A DNA stretch of 64,000 nt from Boudabousia marimammalium (GTDB lineage: Bacteria; Actinomycetota; Actinomycetes; Actinomycetales; Actinomycetaceae): NCBI RefSeq assembly GCF_001936115.1, contig NZ_MPDM01000004.1, positions 1 to 64,000 on the forward strand, given 5' to 3'. Position numbers and translations under genes: made by a program. Every line of letters starts with the position of its first letter. Within the stretch, counting starts at the first letter, position 1. Below, piece after piece: positions 12,667 to 22,354 of this stretch. The notes below the pieces were generated by a model that worked only from the letters and a program-made list of their open reading frames with translations, had not been told where the DNA came from and ran no database searches.

Positions 12667-13077
12667 CTATTTACGAGGGCGTGACATCAACCTAGTGCCA
12701 GCCCAGCGTTTTCCTAGCGAAGCAGTTGAAGTTGTGGAAAGACCGGCGACCTTTGCGGCCTCAGCAATTATGAAAGGTTCCACATAAAGATCCTCGCCGG
12801 CTTTCGGCGTCAGCACCCAAATCAGCCCGCCATTATCGAGATTGCCGGCGGCGTCAACTAGCAGGTCAGTTAAGTCCTCGACCTCGCCATCTTCGGAACG
12901 CCACCAGATTAAGGCACCATCAACGACGTCGTCATAGTCTTCATCAACTAGTTCTTCACCAGTTTCTTGTTCGATTAAATCACGAAGCGTCGTTTCAGCG
13001 TCGTCATCGACGTAAAACTCTTGAACTACCGCACCTTTCGCAAAACCAAAGTGAGCGCGTGCGTTGTCGGCAGACAC
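12667..13077 (-). CDS. DUF3052 family protein
   Basis: A 136-aa actinobacterial protein of unknown function with a DUF3052-type sequence: LGFAKGAVVQEF-like opening (HFGFAKGAVVQEF), a very acidic middle (residues 24-55) and WVLTPKAGED. No signal peptide or membrane segment is seen. The start is GTG, preceded by AGGGGA. It is divergent from aceE across a 250-nt gap, an arrangement also found in mycobacteria (Rv2239c-aceE). Confidence 0.85.
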   Translation of the reverse strand: MSADNARAHFGFAKGAVVQEFYVDDDAETTLRDLIEQETGEELVDEDYDDVVDGALIWWRSEDGEVEDLTDLLVDAAGNLDNGGLIWVLTPKAGEDLYVEPFIIAEAAKVAGLSTTSTASLGKRWAGTRLMSRPRK

Positions 13078-13179: not shown

Positions 13180-13198
13180 AGCGATAATTTAGTTATCT
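13171..13198. repeat. Inverted repeat across the aceE promoter
   Basis: AGATAAC (13171-13177) and GTTATCT (13192-13198) are perfect 7-nt arms 14 nt apart. They bracket the predicted -10 and start site of aceE and overlap the first bases of the following palindrome. It could be a second protein-binding site. Confidence 0.5.
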
Positions 13199-13215
13199 AG
13201 GACACCAGTCCTAGA
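13196..13215. promoter_or_regulatory. 20-bp palindromic operator candidate upstream of aceE
   Basis: TCTAGGAC-ACCA-GTCCTAGA is a perfect palindrome with 8-nt arms, 113 nt upstream of the aceE start. The same TCTAGGA-N6-TCCTAGA pattern occurs at 17690-17709 upstream of aspA. Two such matches in front of two central-metabolism genes suggest a shared regulator. I do not recognise the motif as a known actinobacterial operator. Confidence 0.6.
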
Positions 13216-13234
13216 CTCGCTCCCCCTTTAAGCT

Positions 13235-13354
13235 ATGGACTGTGCTCAAATTGTGGGTAAACTTAGGAAAGAAATTGGGTTGCCCGAAGACGGAGCAGCC
13301 GAGGCTATTGAAAAGGACCGTGAAGTAAGTGAGCGACACCAGCCCCTTGATTGA
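13235..13354 (+). CDS. Possible 39-aa small protein or leader ORF before aceE
   Basis: An ATG-to-TGA frame of 39 codons, [20 protein letters not shown] and onward, ends 26 nt inside aceE in another frame. Its composition is protein-like (charged and helix-prone). It could be a translated upstream ORF that feeds ribosomes into aceE, whose own GTG lacks a well-placed ribosome-binding site. No clear Shine-Dalgarno precedes this ATG either, so chance is a real alternative. Confidence 0.25.
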
Positions 13355-16052
13355 TGGATTACTCAGCCAGGTTCCCGATCATGATCCCGAGGAGACCAGC
13401 GAATGGCTTGAGTCTCTAAGCGGACTGATTGAGGAGAAAGGCGGCCCCCGGGCCCGATACATTCTGTTGTCGATGCTCCGTGAGGCGCGGCTACACAATG
13501 TTTCCGTACCTACCTCGCTGAACACCCCGTTCGTGAACACCATTGGCGTTCACCAAGAACCTTACTTCCCCGGCGACGAAGTAACTGAACGTCAGATCCG
13601 CCGCTGGATTCGCTGGAACGCAGCTGTGCTGGTTACCCGCGCACAGCGCCCCGGCATTAAGGTGGGTGGACACATTTCCTCCTACGCCTCCGTGGCAACA
13701 CTGTACGAGGTTGGTTTTAACCACTTCTTCCGCGGCAAGGATCACCCCGGCGGCGGCGACCATGTCTTCTTCCAGGGGCACTCTTCGCCCGGTAACTACG
13801 CTCGCGCCTTCTTAGAAGGGCGTCTCTCCGAAGCTGACCTAGACGGTTTCCGTCAGGAACACTCCAGTGAAAACGGTATCCCCTCATACCCCCACCCGCG
13901 CATGATGCCTGAGTTCTGGGAGTACCCGACCGTCTCCATGGGTCTGGGACCAGCTGAAGCAATCTACCAGGCATGGTTCGACAAGTACCTACACATGCGC
14001 GGCATCAAAGACACTTCACAGCAGCACACTTGGGCCTTCCTGGGTGATGGTGAAATGGATGAGCCTGAATCACGCGGCATGCTACAGCTAGCTGCCCAGC
14101 AGAAGCTGGACAATCTAACCTTCGTCGTGAACTGTAACCTCCAGCGTCTGGACGGCCCGGTTCGTGGTAACGGCAAGATCATTCAGGAACTCGAAGCCTT
14201 CTTCCGCGGGGCCGGCTGGAATGTCATCAAGGTGGTCTGGGGCCGTGAGTGGGACGTCTTGCTGAACGCTGATAAGGACCGCGCCCTCGTCAACTTGATG
14301 AATGAAACCCTTGACGGTGACTACCAGGCATTCCGCGCTAATGACGGTGCTTTCATTCGCGAGAACTTCTTCAACCGTGATCCGCGCACCAAGGAAATGG
14401 TGAAGGACTGGTCAGATGACGACATCTGGAAGCTCAAGCGCGGCGGACACGACTACCGCAAGGTTTACGCTGCCTACAAGGCAGCCATGGAGCATACCGA
14501 TCAGCCGACAGTTATCTTGGCTCATACGGTTAAGGGCTACGCCCTCGGCACCCACTTCTCCGGCCGTAACTCAGCCCACCAGATGAAGAAGATGGCTGTT
14601 GACGACCTGAAGGCAATGCGCGATCTGCTGAAGATTCCTTTCACTGATGAGGAACTTGAGCGCGACCCTTACCAGCCCCCGTACTACCGCCCATCCGATG
14701 ACGATCCGGCTTTGCAGTACATGATTGAACGACGTCGCGCACTGGGCGGCTTCCTGCCCTCCCGCCCGGTTCAGCATGCTGAGCTGGAAATGCCGAAGGA
14801 AAAGGTGTGGGGCGCTCTCAAGGGTGGCTCTGGCAAGATGGAAGTGGCCACCACTATGGCTTTTGTCCGGATGCTGAAGGACCTGTTGAAGGATAAGAGC
14901 TTCGGCAAGCACATCGTGCCGATTATTCCCGATGAGGCTCGCACCTTCGGTTTGGATGCTATCTTCCCGAGCGCGAAGATTTTCAACACTTTGGGCCAGA
15001 ACTACACCCCGGTTGATGCGGAAATGATGCTCTCATACCGTGAAGCAACCAACGGTCAGATTCTGCACATGGGCATTAATGAGGCTGGTTCTGCCGCTGC
15101 CTTCCAGGTGGCTGGCACTTCCTACTCTACCCATGGTGTACCGATGGTTCCCGTTTACATCTTCTACTCGATGTTCGGTTTCCAGCGTACTGCCGACCAG
15201 TTCTGGGCAGCTGGCGACCAGTTGGCTCGTGGCTTCATTATGGGCGCAACCGCTGGTCGCACCACGCTGGCCGGTGAAGGCACCCAGCACATGGACGGCC
15301 ATTCGCCGTTGATTGCGGGTACGAATACCGCTGTAGTACAGTACGATCCAGCCTACGCCTACGAGATTCCTTACATCTTCCGTGATGGTTTGGAGCGCAT
15401 GTATGGCCCGAAGGGTGACCGCGATCCGAACGTCATGTACTACCTGACCATTTACAACGAGGCTATGCACCAGCCTGCAGAGCCAGAAAACTTGGATGTG
15501 GAAGGCCTGCTTAAGGGTATCTACAAGGTTGCTGAGGCCGAGGGTGAGGGCCCGCAGGTGAACCTGCTGGCTTCTGGTGTTGGTGTGCCGTGGGCAATGA
15601 AGGCCCGTGAACGTCTCCGTAACGAGTGGGGCGTTAAGGCTACCGTCTGGTCTGTGACCAGCTGGAATGAACTGCGTCGCGACGGCTTGGAGGCCGATAA
15701 GCACAACCTGCTGCATCCTGAGGAAGCTCCGCGCGAAGCGTATGTGACTACGAAGCTGTCTGGCGAGTCCGGCCCGTTCGTAGCTACCTCTGATTACGAT
15801 AATCTGGTGCAAGATCAGATTCGTAAGTGGATTCCTGGCGAGTACGCGGTGCTGGGCGCTGACGGATTTGGTTTCTCCGATACCCGTCCTTCTGCTCGAC
15901 GCCACTACTTCATTGATGCTGAATCAATGGTTGTATCTGCTTTAGCTAGCTTGGAAAAGACCGGACAGTACCGCGCTGGTGCTGCTCGCGAAGCGATTGA
16001 GAAATACGACCTGTTCAACGTCAATGCTGAGTCGACACAGAACCTAGAGTAA
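13329..16052 (+). CDS. aceE: Pyruvate dehydrogenase E1 component, homodimeric
   Basis: Decarboxylates pyruvate with thiamine diphosphate and reductively acetylates the E2 lipoyl domain, feeding acetyl-CoA to lipid synthesis and the TCA cycle. At 907 aa it is a full-length homodimeric E1 of the actinobacterial/E. coli AceE type. The ThDP-binding motif runs from GDGEMDE (about residue 239) to VVNCN (about 267); GGHISSYAS and NSAHQMKK are also conserved. The start is GTG at 13329, with AAGGA somewhat far upstream. E2, E3 and lipoate genes are not in the window. A strong hairpin follows the stop. Regulation by the upstream palindrome is inferred. Confidence 0.97.
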
Positions 16053-16069
16053 CTCTAGACATAAAGTTT

Positions 16070-16103
16070 GATGGGGCGGAAAGGATTTCCTTTCCGCCCC
16101 ATC
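16070..16103. terminator. Terminator between convergent aceE and aspA
   Basis: A perfect 15-bp stem, GATGGGGCGGAAAGG paired with its complement around ATTT, lies 17 nt after the aceE stop. U-tracts are weak on either side, but position and stem strength fit a bidirectional terminator between two convergent genes. Confidence 0.8.
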
Positions 16104-16144
16104 AGTCTATTCAGGAGTGCGCGTAAGCTTACAAGCTAGGTCCC

Positions 16145-17626
16145 CTATACCCCATAGTCAGGGATGGGAAGGATTGGGGCAAACTCATCTGGCACAATAT
16201 CGTCATCTTCGGGAATCTCAATAGTACCCGTGTACTGTGGCCGGGCCAGGTTCTCAGGCGAAAGTATCTCATCTACTTGTTCCTCACTGAGAAGACCCTT
16301 TTCAATAATCAGCTCACGGATTCCTTTCCCGGTTCGGGCTGCTTCCTGACCAATCATGTCACCGTTGTAGTGACCGATAATGTCATTGAAATAGGTGACG
16401 ATGCCAATCGAGTTCATTACATAATTACGACCGGATTCCTCATTTGCTTCGATCCCCTCCACACAGTATTCACGCAGTGTCCGAACCGCCTGGGTAAGTA
16501 GGCTAAGGGACTCATAAAGCGATTGCCCAATCACTGGCTCCATAACGTTCAGCTGGAGCTGACCCGCCTGAGCTGCCATGGTGACTGTAATATCATTGCC
16601 GAAGACCTTGAAGCAGACCTGGTTCACTACTTCGGGAATCACCGGATTCACCTTGGCCGGCATGATCGATGATCCGGCGGCGCGCTGCGGCAGACGAATC
16701 TCCGCTAGGCCCGCCCTCGGCCCTGAAGAGAGCAAACGCAAGTCGTTACAAATCTTCGCAAGCTTCGTCGCGGTGCGCTTCAAGGTGCCGTGCATGGAAA
16801 CGTAACGTCCTGTATCCTGCGTTGCTTCAATCAGGTTGGTAGCGCCCACCACCGGAGCGCCCGTAACCTCACGAAGACGCGCCACGACCCGTTCCTGGTA
16901 TCCCGGAGGCGTGTTCAAACCGGTACCGATTGCGGTCGCACCTAGGTTAGTTTCTAGCAGTAGGTTCGCATTGTTCTCCAGCCTGCTATCTTCTTCCGCT
17001 AGGTTCACCGCAAAAGCCGCGAACTCTTGACCCAAAGTCATCGGGACGGCATCTTGCAGCTGGGTGCGCCCCATCTTGAGGACGTCACGGAACTCTAGAC
17101 CCTTGTCTGCGAAAGCCTCGACCAGTTTCGCTAACTCGAGGCGGAAATCCTGCACGCCTTGATAGACTGCCAAGCTCAAACCGGTCGGGAAAGTGTCGTT
17201 AGTCGACTGTGAGCGGTTCAGGTGATCATTCGGGTCCAAGACATCGTAGTCTCCGCGCGGACGCCCCATCATCTCCAAAGCTAGGTTGGCAATAACCTCA
17301 TTGGTGTTCATATTGACTGAAGTGCCGGCTCCACCCTGAAACTGGTCTATGGGGAACTGATCCATGCAAAGACCCTTGTCCAAAATTGCATCACAGGCGT
17401 TGACAATAGCGCGAACTCGCCATCTACGCATTGTGCCTAAGTCTCCGTTGGCGAGGACGCAAGCCTTCTTGACCATCACCATTGAGCGAATCATCGCCGG
17501 ATAGTCATTGAGGGTTCGGGCAGAAATCTGGTAGTTCTCTATTGCCCTGAGAGTGTGAATACCCCAGTAGGCGTCTTTCGGGACTTCTCTGGCTCCTAAC
17601 AAATCACGCTCTGTGCGCGTCTCCAT
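16145..17626 (-). CDS. aspA: Aspartate ammonia-lyase (aspartase)
   Basis: Interconverts L-aspartate with fumarate and ammonia. It is a tetrameric member of the fumarase/aspartase superfamily, 493 aa. The flexible catalytic loop signature [11 protein letters not shown] lies at about residues 315-325. The N-terminus [11 protein letters not shown] with [14 protein letters not shown], and the [17 protein letters not shown] segment after the signature, favour aspartase over fumarase C. The ATG follows GGAGTG. It is convergent with aceE and carries an upstream 20-bp palindrome that matches the one before aceE. It could supply fumarate for anaerobic respiration or let aspartate serve as a nitrogen source. 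Confidence 0.92.
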
Positions 17627-17689
17627 TTTTCACTCCATCGTGTAGATAGTGTTCCGAGGGGATAACGGGCTTGGAATCACAAACCCGCA

Positions 17690-17709
17690 TCTAGGATGTT
17701 CGTCCTAGA
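17690..17709. promoter_or_regulatory. 20-bp palindromic operator candidate upstream of aspA
   Basis: TCTAGGA-TGTTCG-TCCTAGA has perfect 7-nt arms and lies 63 nt upstream of the aspA ATG. It matches the aceE site at 13196-13215 in both arms and in spacing. Two TAAAGT blocks lie immediately upstream of it in the aspA direction and could serve as a -10, so a bound protein would sit over the transcription start. Confidence 0.6.
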
Positions 17710-17754: not shown

Positions 17755-18135
17755 CTATATTTCTTGGATTGTTACCAGAATATCTCCAATGCTGTGCCAA
17801 GCTTCTACGTCTTGGTCAAGAAGTTCTACCTTTAGTTCGGTTTCAATGGTCGAAGCGATGGCACATCTGGCGATTTTTCCAATCTCAAGAGAGTCAAGGG
17901 AGGTCTCAGCAGTGAGCAAACTCGGATCAGTGTCAGTGTGCCTCAGTATGGCTGCTGTAGCGGTCTCCAGAGCTTTCTGGGTAAATGAGTCTGCCTCCGG
18001 CTGAGAAGCCACCGTCGTATCTTCATGAACCTCTGTAGGCGCATCCTCAGTCTCTGCTACTACCGGCTGGTCGCCTTCTTCTGCTTCTAGTTTCGCTTTA
18101 AACGCGGAGAGGGCAGATAAATCCACTACGGTCAC
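17755..18135 (-). CDS. Acyl carrier protein with N-terminal extension
   Basis: A 126-aa acyl carrier-like protein. The C-terminal ~75 residues form the carrier domain; the phosphopantetheine attachment Ser is S82 in LDSLEI, matching the DSL motif. The first ~50 residues are an acidic, probably disordered extension (EAEEGDQPVVAETED...), longer than in ordinary ACPs. The start is GTG and overlaps the DUF3145 stop by 4 nt (GTGA). In mycobacteria the gene at this relative place is acpM, next to fabD and kasA; here no ketosynthase or malonyl transferase is adjacent. Its acyl partner is therefore unknown. Confidence 0.8.
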   Translation of the reverse strand: MTVVDLSALSAFKAKLEAEEGDQPVVAETEDAPTEVHEDTTVASQPEADSFTQKALETATAAILRHTDTDPSLLTAETSLDSLEIGKIARCAIASTIETELKVELLDQDVEAWHSIGDILVTIQEI

Positions 18136-18789: not shown

Positions 18790-20529
18790 TTAGGAGACTT
18801 TACGTTTAGCGGCGTAGATTCCGGCCGCTCCAAGCATCACTAGGACAGAGGAAAGCAATGCTATACCGCTACCCGCAATGCCGGTAACTGGCAGAGTACC
18901 AGCGCTTGGACCGGAGACAGTCGAGGTTGCTGTTGCCTCAGGAGAAGACACAGTGGCCTCAACAGAAGGCTCACCAGTTATTTCTGGGCTCGGATCTGGA
19001 GTGGGCACCACAAAGTTCTCTAAGCGACAAAGATCAATGTCTTGTAAAACCTTAGTCCCAGTATTTTCACTTCCATCTCCCTGCAAGAACTCAACTTGCT
19101 GAGCAGAACCACGAATCACCCAACGCCCCGGCACAGGCTGTAACACCTTAGGATTCCAAGTCTTAGCATCAACCGTTTGGGTATTAAAAGGATGCATAAC
19201 CGCCGTACCGCGAATAGCTACCCTATTTTCTTCCGGAGTTGCTACGCTCAAATCACAGCTATCAAAATAGTTCACATTTACGGCGGGAGCCCACACATGC
19301 TTTACATCAAAGTCAGCATTAAAGTTCTTAGCGCGATAATCGTAGGAGTTACCTCCTGCGACCAAGACGTTCTCAACGGTAGAAGTAGTCGGGAACAGCG
19401 ACAGCGGCTCCCCCGCCGAGTTAATCACCTCACCCACGTTACTAAACAATGAGGCGCTACCGCCGTCCACAATAGTTTTCACATTATTTTGTCCGATATT
19501 GTTTGGGTATAGGTAATAGACTGAATCCTCAAGAACCCTGATGAAGCTCTTTCCTGTATCGGATTCGCCCAGAGTCGCACTCCCGATAACCGCTTCATTA
19601 CCTTTAAAAGTTATCTGCGAATCTGTGAGAACCACGCCATGACCTGCATCAGTCGTGTCTGAGCCTGAATGATCAATGATTCCTACCAAAGTGTTTTCAA
19701 AGTTTAGGTTAGCACCCTCTGCAGTCAATGCTTTCATCATGGAGCATGCTACTGGTTCCGGGGGTTTCTGGCAGGCAGGGATTCTTTGATTAGGAACATG
19801 TACGTCAAAGGTTGAGTCAACAGCTTGAATGGAAGCTCCGGGTTTCAAATCGACTGCGGCCTTCGCATTAGCACTAACATGGAAATGGCTATTAGAGATG
19901 TTTATAGGAGCCTCAGAGATAAAGGCACTATTCTCAATATTCCCGCCTTCTTGAATTATATGAAGGTAAGAGCTGTCTACTGCAACCTGTTTTACTCCGG
20001 CCCCGAAAACCATTGAATGCTCGGTGGTATCCAATGCCTCACTAACAAAAAGACCGCTGTCCTTGATGGAGAAAGTGCCATTCTGATTAGCTGCATCCAC
20101 GCCTATTCCACTAGTGTATTTCGCACTAATGGAGCTGTCACCCACACCGTCACCAACGATAGACACATCAGCATTACCAGACACTTTAATTGCACCGTTC
20201 TTGGCATAAAGTATGTTGATTTCACCATGATTTAGCAACTCTAGATTGGCCGTAATATCCAGACCAGGTGCGCTCGGGCCGTTTACACTAACAACTACAC
20301 CGTCATCAATTCTCATAGTAGTAGCCACCGTAACCTTAATCCCGCTGGTTAGAACTACGTTCTCCGAAAAATGAATGACACTAATATTAGGATCAGCAAT
20401 AGCAGCGTTAATCTGCTCAGCCGTTGTCTGACTCGTCACTTCGAAAGTATTTTCATCAGCAGATGCCACGTCGACGCCAGCGCCGAGTAAAAGCGCAATT
20501 GCTGCGCCAACAGATAGTAATTTATTCAT
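18790..20529 (-). CDS. LPVTG-anchored beta-helix-like surface protein (paralogue 1)
   Basis: A 579-aa predicted cell wall protein. It has a signal peptide (MNKLLSVGAAIALLLGAG, cleavage near ASA-DE, residue 24), then about 370 residues rich in short Ile/Val/Asn/Gly strands such as HGEINIL and ADVSIVGDG that look like a right-handed beta-helix (pectate-lyase-like) fold. A more compact domain follows with KHVWAPAVN, YFDSCD and VLQDIDLC, whose Cys pair could form a disulfide. A Pro/Ser/Thr stalk, LPVTG at 546-550, a hydrophobic segment and the tail AAKRKVS complete a sortase substrate. The ATG follows AAGGGGAA. It is homologous along its length to the gene upstream. The ligand or substrate is unknown. 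Confidence 0.88.
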   Translation of the reverse strand: MNKLLSVGAAIALLLGAGVDVASADENTFEVTSQTTAEQINAAIADPNISVIHFSENVVLTSGIKVTVATTMRIDDGVVVSVNGPSAPGLDITANLELLNHGEINILYAKNGAIKVSGNADVSIVGDGVGDSSISAKYTSGIGVDAANQNGTFSIKDSGLFVSEALDTTEHSMVFGAGVKQVAVDSSYLHIIQEGGNIENSAFISEAPINISNSHFHVSANAKAAVDLKPGASIQAVDSTFDVHVPNQRIPACQKPPEPVACSMMKALTAEGANLNFENTLVGIIDHSGSDTTDAGHGVVLTDSQITFKGNEAVIGSATLGESDTGKSFIRVLEDSVYYLYPNNIGQNNVKTIVDGGSASLFSNVGEVINSAGEPLSLFPTTSTVENVLVAGGNSYDYRAKNFNADFDVKHVWAPAVNVNYFDSCDLSVATPEENRVAIRGTAVMHPFNTQTVDAKTWNPKVLQPVPGRWVIRGSAQQVEFLQGDGSENTGTKVLQDIDLCRLENFVVPTPDPSPEITGEPSVEATVSSPEATATSTVSGPSAGTLPVTGIAGSGIALLSSVLVMLGAAGIYAAKRKVS

Positions 20530-20563
20530 TTCTTTCCCCTTGCACTATTAGCCTAACAAAAAC

Positions 20564-22354
20564 CTATTTACGTGCCCGTGATCTACGAGCAACAGATAAA
20601 CTCAAAGCACCCCATAGTCCCAGCAATGCTATAGCCGCAAAACCAACCTGCAAGCTAACACCCGTGACAGGCAAAGTAGCACCGGCCGGACGAGATACAG
20701 TCGGGCTTACTGTTCCCTCAGGGGAAGACACAGTAGCCTCAACAGAGGGCTCGACAGTCATCTCGGGACTTGACACAGTAGCCTCAACACTTGGCTCAGT
20801 AGTAGGCTCAGGAGTTTCAGAAGTCGGCTCAGGAGTTGACTGCGGAGGCTTGGGGCAGATATCCAAATCCTGCAGGACAGTGGTTGCCTCAACTGTTGCG
20901 GTTGTAGCCTCATAGAAGGCTTGTTCAGGGCTAACTCCCATCACTACCCATTCTCCGCCTTCGACAGTAGTTGCATTGAAGTCGTTCTCAACTGCCGTAC
21001 CGCGGATCAACTGCTTACGAGATTTCGGGGTGCTGGCCGGGGACGCATCGCAGGAAGCAAAGTAGCGTAAGTTTACTGCAGGAGCCCACACATGCTTATT
21101 TGCGTCCTCTGACGTTTTCGTAACATTGTAGGTGTAGGCATAGGGGTCGGAGATGCTGATACTGCCACCAGTCGCCTTAGAGACGAACTCTGTAAGAGCT
21201 TCTGCACCCGAGTTAATCACACCTGAAGTAGTAGGAGGCAACACAACAGTGCCAGAGTCTACCGTGGTCACAATTCGTGGGTCTAACGAAGCGCCATTAC
21301 CGGCCCCGATTTCAACTTTTGAATCGCCATTAATTTTTAGCGTACTACCACTAGTCTGCTTGGCATCCACACCTGCTGAGTCAGCATAGACATGACTATT
21401 CGAAATTATGTAGTTTGCATCCTGGAACTGTAAAGACTGATGGGCCGCATTTGGATTGCTCCCTCCGGTAGTTTCTACACGCAGTTCCGAATCTTGAATG
21501 GTGACAGTATTACCTGCAGTGTTCAAGCCCACATAAGGCTTACAAACTGTGAAAAAGAAGAGTCTGTTACACTTTGCTTCAGCATTATTGGAGGTATGCA
21601 AAGAGATACCAGACCGCAAAATATTCAAAGGCGCACCATTCACAATGGAAAGATTGTAGTCGGAAGCCGTCTCTGACTGTAAGCTGCTGTCAATAAACTC
21701 AACAGGAGCCTCGGAGTAGATAGCCGCTCGCCAAGGTTTCACACCATTTTGTTTTAAAACATTGACTGAAGCGTTTTCAAAGGTGACCTGAGTGACCCCC
21801 TGATTGAAAATCATGGGGCCCTCTTTACCCTCTTGAGGCGACAGCACGAACAGGCTCACATTAGATACTTTAAAGAGCCCTTCTTGGCCTTGGGAATCAA
21901 TACCGTAGCCACGGTTATTCGCAACAGTGAAGACACTGGAAGCTAGGTCATCACCAATCAAAGTGAAGTTAGCTTTCCCGTTAACATGAATGCCATAGTT
22001 CTTGAACTCATTTACTATCACTCTACCGTGATTCCGGAAGACCAAATCACTGGTCACGTTAAACCCGCGGCTGATTTTGTGCGCATTTCCGCTCAGATTA
22101 ACTTCAACACCTTTGTCGACAAAAATCTCCGTCGGAGAACTGATGTTTATGGTACCGGTCAAATTCTTATTCTGCCCGAAATGAATCTGGTTGATTGCAG
22201 GATCTGCAATAGCCGCATTAATCTCTTGCACAGTCGTATCTGCACCCACATCAAAGACAGTAGGATCAGCTGACGCTAAAGCGACACCGCCCCAGATCCA
22301 AATCAACAGAGCTACCGCTCCAGCGACCACCTTTTTCATATTCAATCCATTCAT
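20564..22354 (-). CDS. LPVTG-anchored beta-helix-like surface protein (paralogue 2)
   Basis: A 596-aa paralogue of the following gene, 34 nt apart. Shared features are INAAIADP near the mature N-terminus, the strand-rich helix region, KHVWAPAVN, an SCD...LDIC cysteine pair and IRGTAV. The signal peptide ends near ASA-DP. The stalk carries two copies of a 15-residue EPSVEATVSSPE unit, and LPVTG is at 561-565, followed by a membrane segment and ARRSRARK. The start is uncertain: ATG 22354 or ATG 22339 (MKKVVAGAV), neither with a strong ribosome-binding site. No sortase gene is in the window. Likely an adhesin or a wall-bound glycan-binding protein; this is inference. Confidence 0.87.
   Translation of the reverse strand: MNGLNMKKVVAGAVALLIWIWGGVALASADPTVFDVGADTTVQEINAAIADPAINQIHFGQNKNLTGTINISSPTEIFVDKGVEVNLSGNAHKISRGFNVTSDLVFRNHGRVIVNEFKNYGIHVNGKANFTLIGDDLASSVFTVANNRGYGIDSQGQEGLFKVSNVSLFVLSPQEGKEGPMIFNQGVTQVTFENASVNVLKQNGVKPWRAAIYSEAPVEFIDSSLQSETASDYNLSIVNGAPLNILRSGISLHTSNNAEAKCNRLFFFTVCKPYVGLNTAGNTVTIQDSELRVETTGGSNPNAAHQSLQFQDANYIISNSHVYADSAGVDAKQTSGSTLKINGDSKVEIGAGNGASLDPRIVTTVDSGTVVLPPTTSGVINSGAEALTEFVSKATGGSISISDPYAYTYNVTKTSEDANKHVWAPAVNLRYFASCDASPASTPKSRKQLIRGTAVENDFNATTVEGGEWVVMGVSPEQAFYEATTATVEATTVLQDLDICPKPPQSTPEPTSETPEPTTEPSVEATVSSPEMTVEPSVEATVSSPEGTVSPTVSRPAGATLPVTGVSLQVGFAAIALLGLWGALSLSVARRSRARK
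20708..20797 (-). repeat. Two 45-nt tandem repeats in the wall stalk
   Basis: These encode EPSVEATVSSPEMTV followed by EPSVEATVSSPEGTV in paralogue 2. Paralogue 1 has one EPSVEATVSSPE copy at the same place (near 18950). The near-identical DNA units suggest recent duplication and possible copy-number variation of stalk length. Confidence 0.85.

Follow-up and report, generated by a model that had tools for sequence, protein, structure and literature searches.

What reads the 20-bp palindrome that stands upstream of both aceE and aspA in Boudabousia marimammalium? We analyzed 64,000 nucleotides of contig NZ_MPDM01000004.1 (the window), together with the whole genome of the organism (G000; 1,842,889 bases, 1.84 Mb), three other genomes of the same genus (G001, G002 and G003) and further genomes of the family Actinomycetaceae. 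An initial annotation had reported two copies of TCTAGGA-N6-TCCTAGA, one before each gene, and both are present exactly as claimed. Their length, symmetry and core indicate that the palindromes at 13196 and 17690 are quite probably operator sites of the DosR/DevR class.

13196-13215, unstranded: predicted DosR-type box upstream of aceE, TCTAGGAC-ACCA-GTCCTAGA; rank 1 of the window in the matrix scan below
17690-17709, unstranded: predicted DosR-type box upstream of aspA, TCTAGGAT-GTTC-GTCCTAGA; rank 2 of the window in the same scan

The two palindromes and the DosR box

The aceE site (in full, TCTAGGACACCAGTCCTAGA) is a perfect 8-bp inverted repeat around the 4-base centre ACCA and begins 133 bp ahead of the aceE start codon. 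Its core, formed by GGAC at 13200-13203 and GTCC at 13208-13211, is the only exact GGAC-N4-GTCC core in the 64-kb window. The arms of the aspA site (TCTAGGATGTTCGTCCTAGA) pair at 7 of 8 positions around the centre GTTC. Read in the aspA direction, this site is TCTAGGACGAACATCCTAGA; it begins 83 bp ahead of the aspA start codon, and its core carries one substitution, one half being GGAT.

The published DosR consensus of Mycobacterium tuberculosis, TTSGGGACTWWAGTCCCSAA, is a 20-bp palindrome with a GGAC-N4-GTCC core (PMC2275270). The window palindromes agree with it in length, symmetry, spacer and core, the aceE site exactly and the aspA site apart from its GGAT half. Unlike the mycobacterial box, they have TCTA and TAGA as outer bases in place of TTSG and CSAA, and ACCA or GTTC in place of the central TWWA. 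The initial annotation had not recognized the motif and had allowed for an undescribed regulon; its core is that of the DosR/DevR box.

Independent matrix scan of the window

A matrix was built from 39 distinct exact-core sites upstream of pflB and nrdD, none of them from G000, and was symmetrized, so that one strand was scanned; since exact-core sites alone went into it, its core positions do not vary. The scan of the 64 kb placed the 13196 site first (13.6 bits) and the 17690 site second (13.2 bits), with third place at 9.3 bits. Among the 18 window places within one mismatch of the core, the aspA site was the best scoring after the exact aceE site. In each of the two central bases the matrix has A or T at 0.86.

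In the window, allowing up to two mismatches to TCTAGGA-N6-TCCTAGA gave 2 matches, compared with 0.15 expected from dinucleotide shuffles. Two of 100 shuffles also produced two such matches, as a chance likeness of the palindromes would allow; however, both real matches are free of mismatches, and both are the top hits of a matrix built independently of them. We regard mere chance as extremely improbable. In the whole of G000, the exact pattern occurs at the two sites only, and up to two mismatches gave 5 places, compared with 2 for the reversed-pattern control. With up to three mismatches to TCTAGGACNNNNGTCCTAGA, there were 9 places in G000 against 5 in the control, one of the 9 being C3:223197, ahead of lpd.

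Recurrence of the core at pflB, nrdD, sodA and lpd-aceF

For pflB, which was matched in 88 family genomes, upstream regions of up to 400 bp were taken from 50 of these, comprising the 30 loci listed and 20 picked across genera. All 256 four-base half-sites were counted with 13 spacers (0 to 12), and closely related genomes were weighted equally. GGAC-N4-GTCC was the commonest palindrome, present in 22 of the 50 upstream regions and in 11 genera, while the runner-up reached 10 of 50; in 200 dinucleotide shuffles the mean was 0.46 and the maximum 3. The exact boxes begin 106 to 324 bp ahead of the matched start. With at most one core substitution, a pflB box was found in all four genomes of the genus, namely TCTGGGATAAAAGTCCCAAC in G000, AATGGGACTATAGTCCCTTA in G001, TACGGGACGTTCGTCCCGTT in G002 and TATGGGTCAAAAGTCCCGAA in G003. 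The G000 pflB box has GGAT in one half, as at aspA.

For nrdD, the sample was the best 80 of 574 loci, of which 30 were titled actinobacterial and 50 were others. GGAC-N4-GTCC occurred within 500 bp upstream in 15 of the 30 actinobacterial loci and in none of the 50 others. Within 400 bp it occurred in 13 of the 30 (shuffle mean, 0.56), and again in none of the 50. In this sample, it ranked first of all palindromes at actinobacterial nrdD, followed by CCAC-N8 (11 of 30), which we take to be the NrdR box. Georgenia, Buchananella, Cellulomonas, Brachybacterium and Schaalia are among those that carry it, so the nrdD box extends beyond a single family. Directly after the G000 nrdD box (L234 1501-1560; G000:C5:53029 onward) lie two sequences that resemble NrdR boxes, an arrangement that suggests joint control of the anaerobic ribonucleotide reductase.

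Searching the four genus genomes for the exact core gave nrdD boxes in G000, G001 and G002, sodA boxes in G001 and G003, aceE and lpd boxes in G000, and pflB boxes in G001 and G002. The G000 lpd site, at C3:223197, precedes a dihydrolipoyl dehydrogenase gene (lpd) by about 40 bp, and an acyltransferase gene (aceF) comes next, so that a 2-oxoacid dehydrogenase, presumably that for pyruvate, has one site at its E1 gene and another at its E3-E2 pair. The two sodA boxes (L231 and L230, about 1500-1537) stand directly ahead of the gene.

The initial annotation had defined the motif by fourteen fixed positions. The conserved part proved to be GGAC-N4-GTCC; the complete TCTA/TAGA flanks are common only to the 13196 and 17690 sites within G000, and they are a local detail. 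Those flanks are what a regulator of another kind (such as a TetR or MarR protein) would recognize if TCTAGGA-N6-TCCTAGA were its own, species-private operator and the DosR likeness a coincidence. The low weight of the outer bases in the pflB/nrdD matrix fits such an operator, as does the lack of the full motif at aceE and aspA in G001 and G002. On the other hand, a matrix blind to G000 gives the two sites the top two ranks of the window, and the G000 lpd-aceF and nrdD boxes keep the core of the window sites but not their full flanks. We consider such a private operator unlikely.

Could the palindromes act as RNA hairpins or terminators instead of protein-binding DNA? The 17690 palindrome does appear in a listing of terminator-like structures, on the plus strand, and lies between the minus-strand open reading frame (ORF) 17755-18135 and aspA. 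However, both flanking genes are encoded on the other strand, the 13196 copy is absent from the listing, and pflB and nrdD are preceded by related boxes whose arms differ. An RNA role is thus very improbable, and an operator of the DosR class, serving an aerobic/anaerobic metabolic regulon, is the likely reading of both boxes.

Genes beside the two sites

13329-16052, plus strand: aceE, pyruvate dehydrogenase E1, 907 amino acids; ORF with Pfam PDH_E1_M and transketolase domains; presumed target
16145-17626, minus strand: aspA, aspartate ammonia-lyase, 493 amino acids; ORF with Pfam Lyase_1 and FumaraseC_C domains; presumed target
16069-16104, minus strand: terminator-like 16-bp hairpin between the convergent aceE and aspA, from the hairpin listing
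12667-13077, minus strand: 136-amino-acid ORF, divergent neighbour of aceE; possible second target of the 13196 box

The Pfam domains fit the gene identities given by the initial annotation: aceE encodes a pyruvate dehydrogenase E1, and aspA a member of the aspartase/fumarase superfamily of lyases; for the latter, the superfamily comes from Pfam and the aspartase label was taken over from that annotation. The two genes do converge on a single terminator-like hairpin. The proposal that both promoters share an operator of a regulator, tied to pyruvate and fumarate chemistry, is likewise supported. The 13196 box sits in a divergent intergenic region, and from its position a further target could be the minus-strand ORF 12667-13077.

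A DosR-like regulator in G000

G000:C2:262-933: DosR-like response regulator of the NarL/LuxR type (P0001), 224 amino acids, with receiver and GerE domains

The best solved relative of this regulator is DevR/DosR (3c3w; E 1.2e-47). In M. tuberculosis DosR, Lys179, Lys182 and Asn183 are reported to make base contacts, and roles have also been described for receiver residues (PMC4082495). The segment that holds the base contacts, AEKTVKN, is identical in DosR and the G000 regulator, and Asp8, Asp9, Asp54 and Lys104 of the DosR receiver align with identical residues. EKTVKN was found in 30 of the 30 orthologue loci read. We infer from this likeness that the G000 regulator would be the binder of both boxes.

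G000 encodes four proteins with a GerE domain, and DosR-class boxes might be read by one of the other response regulators; that no self-regulatory box was found at the orphan DosR-like gene is in keeping with this. At the corresponding helix, however, the other three have TTTIKTH, VKTVETH and AAAVSKH, while the K-x-x-K-N base contacts are found in the orphan alone. Another reader among the four is improbable, and the DosR-like protein is the candidate that we retain.

The regulator gene adjoins mutM, followed by rnc, in G000, G001 and G002, and it adjoins mutM in G028 (neighbour families were assigned by Pfam in G000 and G028 and by eye in the rest). No kinase gene was seen beside it in the stretches from these four genomes; in G000 the regulator gene itself lies 261 bp from a contig end.

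A candidate sensor kinase at the cyd cluster

L329 1716-3440 (G000), L330 7809-9518, L331 8030-9805 and L332 8563-10263: GAF-HisKA_3 kinase genes after cyd and ATP-binding cassette (ABC) transporter genes

G000 has three HisKA_3 kinases, two of which adjoin other regulators. The third, of 574 amino acids, has the order GAF-GAF-HisKA_3-HATPase, and its gene follows cydA, cydB and two ABC-transporter genes. The cyd-ABC-kinase order is found in all four genomes of the genus (by eye in G001 and G003). Domains of DevS and DosT are among the best solved relatives of the kinase, while the top solved relative of its catalytic part is a GAF-domain protein without a name. Because it has a DosS/DosT-like architecture and is the sole detected kinase without a partner, it may be the sensor partner of the regulator.

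The GAF-GAF-HisKA_3-HATPase order is shared with DosS/DosT by the kinases of G000, G002 and G003, in each of which Pfam finds two GAF domains; the G001 kinase has a single one. On an alignment in which we set the haem-ligand position (His149/His147) by a chain offset, the G000 kinase has a histidine at the presumed ligand position, while those of G001, G002 and G003 have none. Unlike in DosS/DosT, this histidine is not kept across the genus, and its absence in three genomes, together with the single GAF domain in G001, means that DosS-like haem sensing is not supported. The arrangement also differs from that of DosS/DosT: the G000 kinase gene follows the cyd cluster and the regulator gene stands beside mutM, the two not being adjacent.

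At the cyd cluster itself, no site above 7.2 bits was found in the stretches scanned in G001 to G003, and the front of G000 cydA lay outside the stretch scanned. A 10.1-bit site at the junction of the ABC and kinase genes in G000 was unconvincing. Elsewhere in G000, a HisKA_3 match with an in-frame TAG was noted at C1:23174-23392 (L244).

Conservation at aceE and aspA

The initial annotation had asked whether the motif is conserved before aceE and aspA in relatives. We examined 30 aceE loci of 56 genomes with a match and 30 aspA loci of 57; G003 was not among them. By the same matrix, 11 of the 30 aceE upstream regions reached at least 9 bits with G000 counted (10 of the 29 others), and so did 3 of the 30 aspA upstream regions with G000 counted (2 of the 29 others). 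The background was 1 hit of at least 9 bits per 60 kb of aceE coding sequence, or about 0.007 per 400 bp. The exact core was present upstream of aceE in 5 of 30, G000 included (shuffle mean, 0.45; maximum, 3). The strongest aceE boxes, GGGACAATRGTCCC, belong to genera g10 and g11. In G045, which belongs to another genus, each of the two genes has a box (18.0 bits at aceE, 14.4 bits at aspA), repeating the pairing of the window. Conservation therefore held in part of the family, while in G001 and G002 the boxes were absent or weak, and the aceE and aspA sites are conserved only patchily.

Observations that weigh against a DosR-type regulon

Several results count against the reading of the boxes as DosR-type operators of a shared regulon. 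At aceE, GGAC-N4 did not stand out in an unbiased count: 14 palindromes, this one included, were each present in 5 or more of the 30 upstream regions. At aspA, the exact core was found in 0 of 30, and the core with at most one mismatch in 7 of 30. G001 has no 9-bit box at either gene, and in G002 there is a weak one before aceE (9.0 bits) but none before aspA. Even at one mismatch, 17 of the 50 pflB upstream regions lacked the core, all four g18 genomes read being among them; one of the 17, L163, spans just 258 bp.

An orthologue of the regulator with at least 61% identity was found in 97 of 101 family genomes, the organism's own included; the exceptions were G016, whose only match was at 44%, and G009, G032 and G065, with none at E 1e-30. 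With the regulator near-universal in the family, its presence or absence cannot test the link to the boxes. At its own gene, no box was found in the five loci scanned, where the best scores were 0.65 to 7.97 bits.

The remaining results of this kind concern abundance. RGGACN4GTCCY gave 6, 6, 3 and 3 places in the four genus genomes, compared with 6, 10, 4 and 0 for the reversed control. TCTAGGA-N6-TCCTAGA at one mismatch gave 20 places in 200 family genomes (it is present in 17 of them), compared with 28 for the reversed control. Since neither pattern exceeds its control, abundance alone is no evidence, and we put the weight on position and gene identity.

The one-mismatch scan with downstream genes listed, as advised by the initial annotation, thus showed no excess of sites, while the neighbours did point to pyruvate and redox metabolism. 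Among the 16 places outside G000, the neighbours were pflB (two), an NDH-2-like oxidoreductase gene (two), COX3 (two), lpd, and genes for phosphoenolpyruvate (PEP) carboxylase, DUF5692, an aldehyde dehydrogenase and an aspartate-kinase-like protein. The other five places lie inside cydA (G002), inside a phosphotransferase-system-like gene (G071, by eye), or have no neighbour given (G046, G098 and G140). The COX3 and aspartate-kinase sites were discounted for their low scores (6.0, 4.8 and 1.0 bits).

Proposed model and known systems

In the model that we favour, a dimer of the phosphorylated regulator would bind GGAC-N4-GTCC boxes under one oxygen or redox state, the likely sensor being the GAF-HisKA_3 kinase whose gene comes straight after the cydAB and ABC-transporter genes. 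The aceE and aspA promoters would then be adjusted jointly with those of lpd-aceF, pflB and nrdD, as well as that of sodA in sister species, so that the cell would shift between respiratory and fermentative pyruvate use as its oxygen or redox state changes. Regulator binding, the pairing with the kinase, the signal and the choice between activation and repression are all predictions from sequence. The distances from box to start codon fit activation and repression alike, and we therefore assign no sign.

DosR, which responds to low oxygen in M. tuberculosis, is known chiefly as a mycobacterial dormancy regulator. Unlike in the M. tuberculosis system, the targets predicted here are genes for pyruvate dehydrogenase, pyruvate formate-lyase, NrdD, aspartase and superoxide dismutase. 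In Actinomycetaceae the box recurs at pflB, nrdD and aceE, as well as at sodA in two of the species, which suggests that this regulator class may have a broader function in choosing between respiratory and fermentative metabolism. In Escherichia coli, global oxygen control of the ArcA/FNR type has the same physiological role, if the regulon holds; it uses other protein families and other sites, and the likeness is one of analogy.

Outside mycobacteria, a DosR-type regulator has been described in Streptomyces coelicolor (OsdR/OsdK), with the palindrome AGGGCCGATCGGCCCT. Its half-site is GGGCC, compared with RGGAC here, and genes for universal stress proteins and for development are among the targets predicted for it (PMC5069765). 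Rex, a redox repressor of anaerobic genes (PMC2883068), was considered as the binder because of target overlap and was rejected: its site, TTGTGAAW4TTCACAA, does not match, and no PF06971 (Put_DNA-bind_N) match was found in G000. Across the 61 family genomes of the same search, PF06971 was detected in 8 at E 0.001 and in 1 over the cut-off, with the control detected in 7 of 14 genomes.

The DosR-type class is already known, and the new part is the content and arrangement of the regulon; a literature search, which was not exhaustive, found no description of such a regulon. A broader proposal is that a DosR-class regulator, with a cyd-cluster kinase that mostly lacks the DosS haem ligand, serves as a general aerobic/anaerobic switch in Actinomycetaceae and some neighbours, governing pyruvate dehydrogenase versus pyruvate formate-lyase, the anaerobic ribonucleotide reductase, aspartase and superoxide dismutase. 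We judge it equally apt to prove right or wrong. If true, a dormancy-type regulator would fill the role played elsewhere by ArcAB, FNR or Rex. The analysis gives a concrete candidate regulator, site and target list for the oxygen/redox response in Actinomycetaceae.

Other sites and sequences

Six further G000 places were set aside as probable chance matches: C1:44554 (hairpin-like), C5:67872 (within an ORF), C3:33327, C3:58787, C11:25705 and C14:2679. The palindrome at C5:67872 (L235, about 1440-1520) has the exact core, lies between two TGCGTGRAAATCAACGC-like repeats and looks iteron-like. A 17.5-bit box at G000:C2:290906-290919 (L082) lies between genes for a pyrimidine-nucleoside phosphorylase and a sodium-solute symporter. 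The gene for a DUF5692 membrane protein has a near-match upstream in both G000 and G059 (L004 and L010, 1501-1520; 5.5 and 11.9 bits). In G098, a near-match to TCTAGGA-N6-TCCTAGA scoring 16.5 bits (L011 1501-1520) is close to a contig end.

Within the window, the minus strand of 18790-22354 holds two tandem ORFs with LPVTG-type sorting signals at their ends and repeated SVEATVSSPE segments.

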